Virus record (IMG/VR): IMGVR_UViG_3300047553_000127
Span: 1-20,322 of that record
Source: a virus
Reading direction: 5' to 3' (one strand)
DNA: 20,322 nucleotides
This document shows, one piece after another, positions 9,925-11,734 of this stretch (position 1 is its first letter; the number at the start of each line of letters is the position of its first letter). The position numbers and the translations under genes were made by a program. Under the pieces are notes generated by a model. It had not been told where the DNA came from. It did not search any database and worked only from the letters and a program-made list of their open reading frames with translations.

Positions 9925-10641
9925 TTACTCAATGATCCTGTTTTCACGAATCATTTTGTGGATAAAATAAATGTAGGAATCCGATTTTGCCATGGTGATT
10001 TTAATTGTCATGTCATCAATGTGATTTAACCGATTCCAAATTTTTTCCTTTTCTTCCGGATCAATCTGAATGATTCCAAATTTTTTGGCGATGTCATAAA
10101 GGTGATGCAATCCGCCATATGGAAACCTGTAATCAGGATTTTTTTTGATTGTGTCAATGTAATCATTTAATGTTTCCACGGCCTGCTTCCGTAATTCATG
10201 ATCCGATGGTACCGGTAATGGTGGCTGTTCAACATATGTGTTTTGGATCATGCCAATCACCTGCCTTTTGTCCATGCTGTAATATTTTAGCCATCGAACA
10301 AAATTTGATGAATTGAAAAACACATTGGTTTCCGATTCCTTCAAATAATCTCCATTCAATCCGCGTTTTGTGGCTATCAATACATCCTGTTCTGTATATG
10401 CCGGAAATTCTTTAATGTCCTGCAATAACATCAGCACATTGGCCTGTTCATCCTGTGCGCTAATTCCGTTCAATCCTAATTTGAATTTAGCCAATGATAA
10501 AACTTTTGTGGCTAATGTAATCAGGTGTTCATCGCTGATCGTTTTGATCAATGGCATTTTGGATGCCTCAATGATTTCTAAATCTGCCTTGGTAAATTTA
10601 CCAATTGCTGATGTCGAATGGATTGTTAATGACTTTTCCAT
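9925..10641 (-). CDS. hypothetical replication-associated protein, 238 aa
   Basis: The protein directly follows the replication initiator-like gene and overlaps it by 44 nt. It lacks a P-loop, so it is not a DnaC-type ATPase loader. The N-terminal part (SDEHLITLATKVLSLAKFKLG) is helical; the middle holds LLQDIKEFPAYTEQDVLIAT and NVFFNSSNFVRWLKYY, and the C-terminal half is basic and helical, with RFPYGGLHHLYDIAKKFG. Comparable proteins occur beside initiators in Bacteroidota prophages (from memory), without known function. The start at 10641 follows GAAAG; the long overlap makes the exact start uncertain. Confidence 0.78.
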   Translation of the reverse strand: MEKSLTIHSTSAIGKFTKADLEIIEASKMPLIKTISDEHLITLATKVLSLAKFKLGLNGISAQDEQANVLMLLQDIKEFPAYTEQDVLIATKRGLNGDYLKESETNVFFNSSNFVRWLKYYSMDKRQVIGMIQNTYVEQPPLPVPSDHELRKQAVETLNDYIDTIKKNPDYRFPYGGLHHLYDIAKKFGIIQIDPEEKEKIWNRLNHIDDMTIKITMAKSDSYIYFIHKMIRENRIIE

Positions 10642-11353
10642 CTTTCATGTTGTGTTTTATGGCTTGCTGTGCCGCGTTTATATTCTCTAAATTCGTTTGA
10701 ATTTTACCTTTCTTTTCGGCAATTACTGAATTATTATTTTTTGGCTCAAATAATCCCTGATAATTATTTGCGATTGAATGTTCGATGGCATTCATCAACT
10801 GATCATCCGTTTTGCCTTCCCATAACTTCATCAATTTGGCTTTTCCGATTTCCGTGTATTTGGATTTCTTTTGTTTTTTGTAATCAAACCATGTTTCAAA
10901 TAACTGATCCCTAAACGAAACAAATTCAACAATTTCAACTTCGCCTTTATTGTTTACTTCTATTGTTTTATTTATTTCTTGTTTTATGGATTCTTGTTTT
11001 ATATTATTTGATGGTTTTCCTGTATTAGGATTTTCCTGTACCGGGTTTCCTAACATTAGGTTTTCCGCAACAGGGATTTCGCATAGTAGGTATTGAACAT
11101 GCCAATGACCAAACTCATTTTGATACCTTTCGCGTTTTAAATATCCGTTTGATTCCAATTCCTTCAATGCTGAATTGATTGTTGGCAAACCTTCTTTCAA
11201 TTGATTTGAAATCCGTTCTGCACTAAATTCCCAACCATCCGGTTTTGATTGAATGTATGCAAATAATCCTTTTGCCTTCAATGAAATGTCAATACTATTG
11301 ACCAAATCATTTGGTATTGTGGCATACCTGTTTTTGATGACTAATTTTTTCAT
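10598..11353 (-). CDS. phage replication initiator-like protein (winged HTH plus DnaT/DnaD-like C-terminal region)
   Basis: The product is 251 aa from the ATG at 11353. Residues 1-90 form a winged helix-turn-helix: YATIPNDLVNSIDISLKAKG, WEFSAERISNQLKEG, TINSALKELESNGYLKRE, as in phage replication proteins that bind origin DNA. Residues 95-160 are a polar, Asn-rich linker. Residues 155-215 hold FETWFDYKKQKKSKYTEIGK and LMNAIEHSIANNYQGLF, the aromatic pattern of the C-terminal domain of DnaT/replisome-organiser proteins that recruit helicase. An in-frame ATG at 11395 would add 14 residues but lies in the arm of a hairpin. Expression is probably controlled by the promoter at 11456-11485 and the structured leader. 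Confidence 0.82.
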   Translation of the reverse strand: MKKLVIKNRYATIPNDLVNSIDISLKAKGLFAYIQSKPDGWEFSAERISNQLKEGLPTINSALKELESNGYLKRERYQNEFGHWHVQYLLCEIPVAENLMLGNPVQENPNTGKPSNNIKQESIKQEINKTIEVNNKGEVEIVEFVSFRDQLFETWFDYKKQKKSKYTEIGKAKLMKLWEGKTDDQLMNAIEHSIANNYQGLFEPKNNNSVIAEKKGKIQTNLENINAAQQAIKHNMKDGKVINNPFDISNW

Positions 11354-11356
11354 GAT

Positions 11357-11396
11357 AAAAAAAATGCCTGAATCCGTAGGAGTGGAAACAGGCATT
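11357..11396 (-). terminator. hairpin with U-run directly before the replication gene (terminator or attenuator)
   Basis: On the coding strand, AATGCCTG (11396-11389) pairs perfectly with CAGGCATT (11370-11363). Inside come a UU/UU internal loop, a 3-bp UCC/GGA stem and an 8-nt apical loop ACTCCTAC. Eight T follow (plus A-run 11357-11364, partly in the stem), then ATC and the ATG at 11353. It has the form of an intrinsic terminator but lies in the leader of the gene it precedes, so attenuation is possible. Confidence 0.7.
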
Positions 11397-11450
11397 GTGG
11401 TTTTTAACCCTCATTAATCACCCGGAAACTCCTACCCTTCCGGCTGATTA
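11357..11450 (-). promoter_or_regulatory. structured leader RNA with two hairpins and complementary loops (candidate kissing-loop element)
   Basis: Hairpin A (11450-11415) has arms TAATCA-G-CCGGAA and TTCCGG-G-TGATTA, 12 pairs with one G/G mismatch, and a 10-nt loop GGGTAGGAGT. Hairpin B is the terminator-like stem at 11396-11363 with the loop ACTCCTAC. The eight bases GTAGGAGT in loop A are the exact reverse complement of the whole loop B. A small GGTT/AACC hairpin lies in the linker (11409-11399). The predicted transcription start from the promoter just upstream falls at about 11450, so hairpin A would form the 5' end of the mRNA of the replication gene. Structure is read by eye and function is inferred. 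Confidence 0.65.
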
Positions 11451-11455
11451 CTTTG

Positions 11456-11485
11456 CAAATATAGGTGTTTAATTTATTTGCGCAA
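11456..11485 (-). promoter_or_regulatory. Bacteroidota-type promoter for the replication gene
   Basis: A TTG (-33 box, minus strand 11485-11483) is followed after 19 nt by TATATTTG (11463-11456), a perfect TAnnTTTG -7 box. It lies at the 3' end of the preceding 86-aa gene, and its expected start near 11450 coincides with the foot of the first leader hairpin. Confidence 0.55.
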
Positions 11486-11734
11486 TGGCCTGAAATTAAA
11501 CATGTTGCTAAACTGCGGAAATTCATTGGCAAATTTACGCGCATACATGGCCGTGAAATTGTTACTGATTTTGTATGGCTCATTTGTTTTCACCGAATGA
11601 TGCCATCTGATTTCCTCCACGATCCGCTTGGATCCTAATTTTCGCATACCGCGTTTAATTAAATCCATGGCGATTGCTTTGTACAATTCCCAAATGTGTG
11701 GATTTTCCTGATCGTATTGCTGAAAATTTTTCAT
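11474..11734 (-). CDS. conserved phage hypothetical protein, 86 aa
   Basis: The sequence (QYDQENPHIWELYKAIAMD, KLGSKRIVEEIRWHHSV, FTAMYARKFANEFPQFSNMF) follows a pattern I recall from many phages: an IWELF-type start, an IRW block and a NNxxxxYARxFxxxxPxxxxFF end. No function is established; a basic, helical DNA- or protein-binding role is plausible. The start overlaps the stop of a membrane gene as ATGA (11731-11734). It ends just after the -33 box of the downstream promoter, so the two transcription units overlap. Confidence 0.82.
   Translation of the reverse strand: MKNFQQYDQENPHIWELYKAIAMDLIKRGMRKLGSKRIVEEIRWHHSVKTNEPYKISNNFTAMYARKFANEFPQFSNMFNFRPLRK

Follow-up and report, generated by a model that had tools for sequence, protein, structure and literature searches.

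A phage early-operon leader with two hairpins, complementary loops and a terminator-like U-run

The virus record IMGVR_UViG_3300047553_000127 is a stretch of 20,322 nt, referred to here as the window. Upstream of a replication initiator gene on its minus strand, two hairpins present complementary apical loops, and the locus raises the question of whether this pairing is more than chance, whether it belongs to RNA or to DNA, and what it might control. A sequence-only reading had placed the hairpins at the coordinates given below, which proved correct, and both structures are present in the MFE and centroid folds of the leader. Its placement of the element between a promoter and the initiator start was also borne out. 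The features of the locus, from upstream to downstream, are as follows.

11474–11734, minus strand: conserved upstream ORF of 86 aa (PHROG 13625), used as the anchor for unbiased fetching of relatives
11456–11463, minus strand: −7 box TATATTTG, fitting TAnnTTTG, the consensus of the Bacteroidota −7 box; transcription start expected at the base of hairpin A
11415–11450, minus strand: hairpin A, a stem with a conserved 1 × 1 mismatch (fold and covariation)
11428–11435, minus strand: kissing strand of loop A, GUAGGAGU (fold, covariation, scoring of own versus swapped partners)
11399–11410, minus strand: small linker hairpin GGGUUAAAAACC (fold; class I relatives have a similar one)
11363–11396, minus strand: hairpin B, a terminator-like stem with an internal loop beneath a 3-bp apical stem (fold)
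11376–11383, minus strand: kissing strand of loop B, ACUCCUAC (fold, covariation, scoring of own versus swapped partners)
11357–11364, minus strand: U8 run, an intrinsic-terminator-like tail that directly continues hairpin B (sequence)
10598–11353, minus strand: first gene of the operon, a replication initiator of 251 aa with an HTH_36 domain (Pfam HTH_36, 3e-7; PHROG 428, replication initiation protein, 5e-18)

The complementarity of the two loops at the hairpin tips was confirmed by the fold and by relatives. The stems had been described as otherwise perfect, which needs correction: hairpin B consists of 8 bp, a 2 × 2 UU/UU internal loop, 3 bp and an 8-nt loop, and hairpin A contains the 1 × 1 mismatch. 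The loop of hairpin A is closed by a G-U pair that can cut the kiss to 7 bp. Two features had been overlooked, namely the U8 run after hairpin B and the initiator start codon, an ATG at 11353, which follows the run almost immediately. Hairpin B resembles an intrinsic terminator, since its stem runs straight into the U8 run. The leader folds at −37.8 kcal/mol, compared with a mean of −25 kcal/mol for shuffled sequences (z = −3.96; 0/200 shuffles). Relatives of the PHROG 13625 upstream ORF occur in phages that include those of Acinetobacter and Mycobacterium.

The chance of the loop match had been put at 1 in 65,000, a figure that ignores multiple testing. In three block shuffles of four phage sequences (∼188 kb in total per shuffle, both strands), one comparable two-hairpin match was found, which corresponds to roughly 0.04 per 20-kb window. 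Block shuffles were used for this estimate because real elements survive reversal, making a reversed-sequence control invalid; a generic two-hairpin scanner, applied to every locus, gave too much noise where the DNA was G+C-rich. Taken alone, the window sequence is thus suggestive of an element only moderately beyond chance. It is the comparison with relatives, at the level of sequence, that decisively settles the leader as more than a chance arrangement.

Relatives were collected by alignment to the 86-aa upstream ORF alone, irrespective of the RNA, which yielded 80 viral loci. Within 125 nt after the ORF, 78 of the 80 contain perfect loop complementarity of at least 7 nt, represented by about nine loop types. 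The two exceptions are an unrelated contig (L268) and a locus in which the element is displaced downstream (L285). Among the 58 unique relatives in this set, all have a U-run after hairpin B, for which they had not been selected, and 47 have the TAnnTTTG box at a fixed upstream distance (∼0.03 expected per sequence). The start codon lies 10–36 nt past the start of the U-run in 52/58; in the remaining six, the distance is slightly negative because an in-frame ATG inside hairpin B was picked first. Promoter spacing, U-run and position are established by these alignments. Relatives anchored on the Rep protein have the same leader with different yet complementary loops (GUGAGAG/CUCUCAC and GUCGGAG/CUCCGAC) and include a pair of swapped polarity, CUCUCGAC/GUCGAGAG. 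A scan with the class I pattern returned 92 stretches, and the full layout is present in nearly all of them. As sole query, the 14-mer of hairpin A retrieved mostly unrelated contigs.

Two classes of the leader share one geometry. Hairpin A of class I contains the purine-rich kissing strand, preceded by GG. Class II has this strand in hairpin B, after two bases that are mostly purines, and its hairpin A contains the pyrimidine-rich strand, with six bases, mostly A/U, on its 3′ side. In nearly all cases, the purine strand begins with GU. Class II versions of hairpin B (L308, L310, L320, L324, L415 and others) keep an internal loop, UGAA/GGAU or GAGUA/GAAA, and these sequences resemble tandem G-A and bulged-G motifs.

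Both classes covary in the stems and in the kiss. In the class I alignment (36 sequences), 97.4% of cells are paired, compared with 79.9% after shuffling and 30–50% when slid, and the covariation score is 0.495 versus 0.142 (0/500). Each of the 11 pairs counted in hairpin A (alignment A2) shows two-sided changes, with 97.9% of cells paired, and all three apical pairs of class I hairpin B covary. The 7-bp core of the class I kiss is never broken (252/252 cells paired), with compensated changes at two positions (A-U/G-C/C-G and G-C/A-U). In the class II alignment (30 sequences), the kiss is paired in 240/240 cells, six of its eight pairs changed on both sides, and the covariation score is 0.691 versus 0.194 (0/500). 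Class II loop A is closed in 30/30 sequences by a 5–6 bp stem of widely differing sequence, and a 6-nt linker lies 3′ of the kiss in 26/30. A first class II alignment, in which MAFFT misaligned hairpin B, was left out of counting. Exact-match searches produced the GUAGGAG set of class I and both pattern sets of class II, so part of the loop pairing in these sets is built in; the protein-anchored set and the differences between loop types are free of this bias. Across 13 distinct loop pairs, each loop forms 7–8 Watson-Crick pairs with its own partner and a mean of 3.1 with swapped partners. Both hairpins, a kiss of 7–9 bp and its coevolution are established by these comparisons, and the kissing-loop reading stands: relatives retain the stems, and loop changes are compensated. 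Mimicry of an SD/anti-SD pair by GUAGGAGU/ACUCCUAC was considered and dropped, as other loop types do not keep it.

The strand is likewise determined. G-U pairs in hairpin A occur on the minus strand only, and the class I covariance model scores 99.9 bits on the minus strand and 21.1 on the plus strand; class II and the cultured phages lie beyond the reach of this model. The adjoining replication genes would fit a DNA structure at an origin, whether cruciform or single-stranded, or else a site bound by a protein; an origin structure had been among the earlier suggestions. The strand asymmetry argues against these readings, as do the promoter, the U-run and a copy that precedes an antirepressor gene, and we regard such a DNA element as extremely improbable.

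The genes that follow the leader are diverse. When an initiator comes first, it may be of the HTH_36, Lin1244 or DnaD/DnaA-like type; other first genes encode a DnaG-type primase, a BT4734-like (VirE N-terminal type) protein, a DEAD helicase, DUF6291, an antirepressor or small ORFs. The leader is kept when the initiator is swapped (L001–L003 compared with L004 and L005), and small ORFs have been inserted exactly between it and the initiator gene in L011, L013, L180, L187, L194 and L291 (28678–29046). This persistence through swaps and insertions makes it unlikely that the initiator itself is the regulator. The ORF that separates leader and initiator in phage Danklef_1 may be a homing endonuclease. 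In four further loci (L129, L145, L190 and L232), the initiators have unrelated N-termini and a common C-terminal tail, LGTSAARMEA(L/I)(R/K)xW, as if N-terminal domains had been swapped between the leader and a fixed C-terminus. The proposal of an RNA switch controlling replication remains plausible in that the leader mostly heads replication operons. As a description it is too narrow, given that an antirepressor follows one copy and a helicase or small ORFs follow others; ‘early-operon leader’ is the more exact name.

The leader is also present in cultured phages. It was found in Polaribacter phages Danklef_1 and Freya_1, in Tenacibaculum phage JQ, where the kiss is 9 bp long, and twice in Tenacibaculum phage Gundel_1 (L297; 16774–16893 and 33884–33998). 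The Gundel_1 copies, one before a replication protein and one before an antirepressor, have different loop pairs, which makes orthogonality of the two possible. Two elements on one viral contig were also seen in L362 and L364, with different loop pairs in the copies of L364. Both kinds of loop, class I polarity and the reverse, occur in cultured Polaribacter and Tenacibaculum phages. The loop patterns of Gundel_1 copy 2 and of JQ match 106 and 60 viral stretches, respectively, many with the full layout; by a rough hand estimate, some ten to a few tens of matches would be expected by chance. Of the distinct matches to the first pattern, 50/98 have the box and a fold that exposes both loops. Matches to the JQ pattern give less clear MFE structures, with both loops exposed in 3/45, and loop-A stems of 5–6 bp are plain in the aligned sequences. 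No match was found in cultured phages P12024S, P2559S, 6H, phi12:1 and 11b or in the first 50 kb of Maribacter phage Colly_1; with five cultured flavophages and part of a sixth lacking a match, the leader is not universal. Neither the class I pattern nor the alignment of the upstream ORF found a counterpart among 84,980 prokaryote genomes, and blastn with the class I consensus returned nothing convincing in phage or plasmid records.

On this comparative evidence, the leader is almost certainly a real genetic control element. It is laid out like a transcription leader with an intrinsic terminator at its end, and the kiss is the sole conserved contact between hairpin A and that terminator. From this we infer an attenuator role: the element is probably a kissing-loop transcription attenuator of Bacteroidota phages, located in a 5′ leader of ∼90 nt with its own −7 box, that tunes readthrough into the early operon, with the kiss either favoring or opposing termination. 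The leader would be transcribed from this box. Loop A would then capture or hold loop B as the terminator stem closes, while RNA polymerase is leaving the leader, and the contest between the kiss and terminator closing would set readthrough into the replication operon or another early operon. As the loop sequence and the first gene vary and the geometry is kept, the likeliest input would be a shared factor or a kinetic state, such as polymerase speed, a Nus/Rho-type factor or a phage protein; the last would recognize the kissing shape and not its sequence. Tentatively, and with less confidence than in attenuation as such, the kissing-loop terminator may be a new mechanistic class, in which a shape read by polymerase or a phage factor times early operons and orthogonal pairs coexist within a genome. 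No conserved antiterminator helix, as needed by a classical two-state attenuator, was established in a search by eye. In class II, a weak AU-rich pairing with the 5′ arm of the terminator is possible by eye as an alternative; its positions are invariant.

A strong terminator directly before a start codon would suit a stand-alone small RNA equally well. The leader would then be a complete unit of promoter, kiss-closed two-hairpin RNA and terminator, acting in trans or as a decoy, and the gene would abut it through genome compactness. The box and U-run do form a complete transcription unit, the first gene is not conserved and can be parted from the leader by ORFs (L011, L013, L180 and L187), and one phage holds two copies with different loops. 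However, the interval from U-run to start codon is too short for a separate promoter, so the operon must be transcribed through the leader; the loops are consumed by pairing in cis, no conserved exposed segment was found, and nearly all copies sit at early-operon starts. An independent small RNA is therefore rather unlikely. The structure extends from near +1 almost to the start codon, which might also suit a 5′ UTR that stabilizes the mRNA or positions it for translation in a phylum where Shine-Dalgarno pairing is rare; the U-run would then terminate only weakly. This reading is improbable, as protection needs no kiss onto a terminator loop and a strong G+C stem with a U-run is kept in 58/58 relatives. 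Copy control by an antisense RNA, of the pT181 or ColE1 kind, would account for a rep leader, a terminator before the initiator gene and kissing-loop hairpins; a binding site for an antisense RNA had been among the earlier suggestions. But the complementarity lies within one strand, between two hairpins, and antisense TAnnTTTG boxes, the only type counted, are not in excess within 200 nt downstream (21/109 loci, compared with 15/109 in control DNA). Antisense control is thus unsupported, and we consider it very improbable.

Known regulatory RNAs offer partial parallels to the attenuator that we favor. In the ColE1 RNAI-RNAII and R1 CopA-CopT systems, complementary loops of 7–8 nt are tied to replication control, and in ColE1 the protein Rop reads the kissing shape. 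The leader is similar in its covarying loop-loop pairing of 7–9 bp. Unlike these systems, in which two RNAs arise from opposite strands, its two hairpins share one strand and fit into ∼90 nt, and no antisense partner was found. Purine riboswitches form an intramolecular L2-L3 kiss in a 5′ leader upstream of a terminator. The leader differs from them in having no P1 helix, three-way junction or invariant ligand-binding core, and consists of two separate hairpins and a linker hairpin. The put RNAs of phage HK022 are short phage leaders with two hairpins that act in cis on transcription; to our knowledge, neither a U-run nor a loop-loop kiss has been described for them, and the leader was compared with put by description only. 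The attenuator of pT181 combines kissing loops with interior loops close by and a terminator ahead of the rep gene; its kiss is made with an antisense RNA in trans, and an antiterminator segment takes up the terminator stem (PMC4878617). The leader shares with the repC attenuator of this Staphylococcus plasmid its location 5′ of an initiator gene, the terminator-like stem and U-run before the gene, the loop-loop kissing and the interior loops. In contrast to pT181, its two loops are in one RNA, with the terminator-like hairpin supplying one of the two; no excess of antisense −7 boxes was found, and inspection by eye did not establish an antiterminator.

The leader family is likely new and uncatalogued. 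The window and nine related loci gave no match in Rfam 15 at the gathering threshold; a permissive search returned only weak matches far below it. No such element was found in full-text literature, in a search that left subscription papers and preprints largely outside its coverage, and hairpins and non-coding RNA go unmentioned in the papers that describe isolation of the cultured phages. These phage RNAs thus seem to form an abundant family missing from catalogues, with the key contact backed by coevolution in both orientations. Its presence in cultured Polaribacter and Tenacibaculum phages makes a break-and-restore test of the loop pair feasible. The family provides a naturally occurring collection of orthogonal kissing pairs placed on a terminator, and it may show how phages of Bacteroidota, whose regulation is little known, time their replication.
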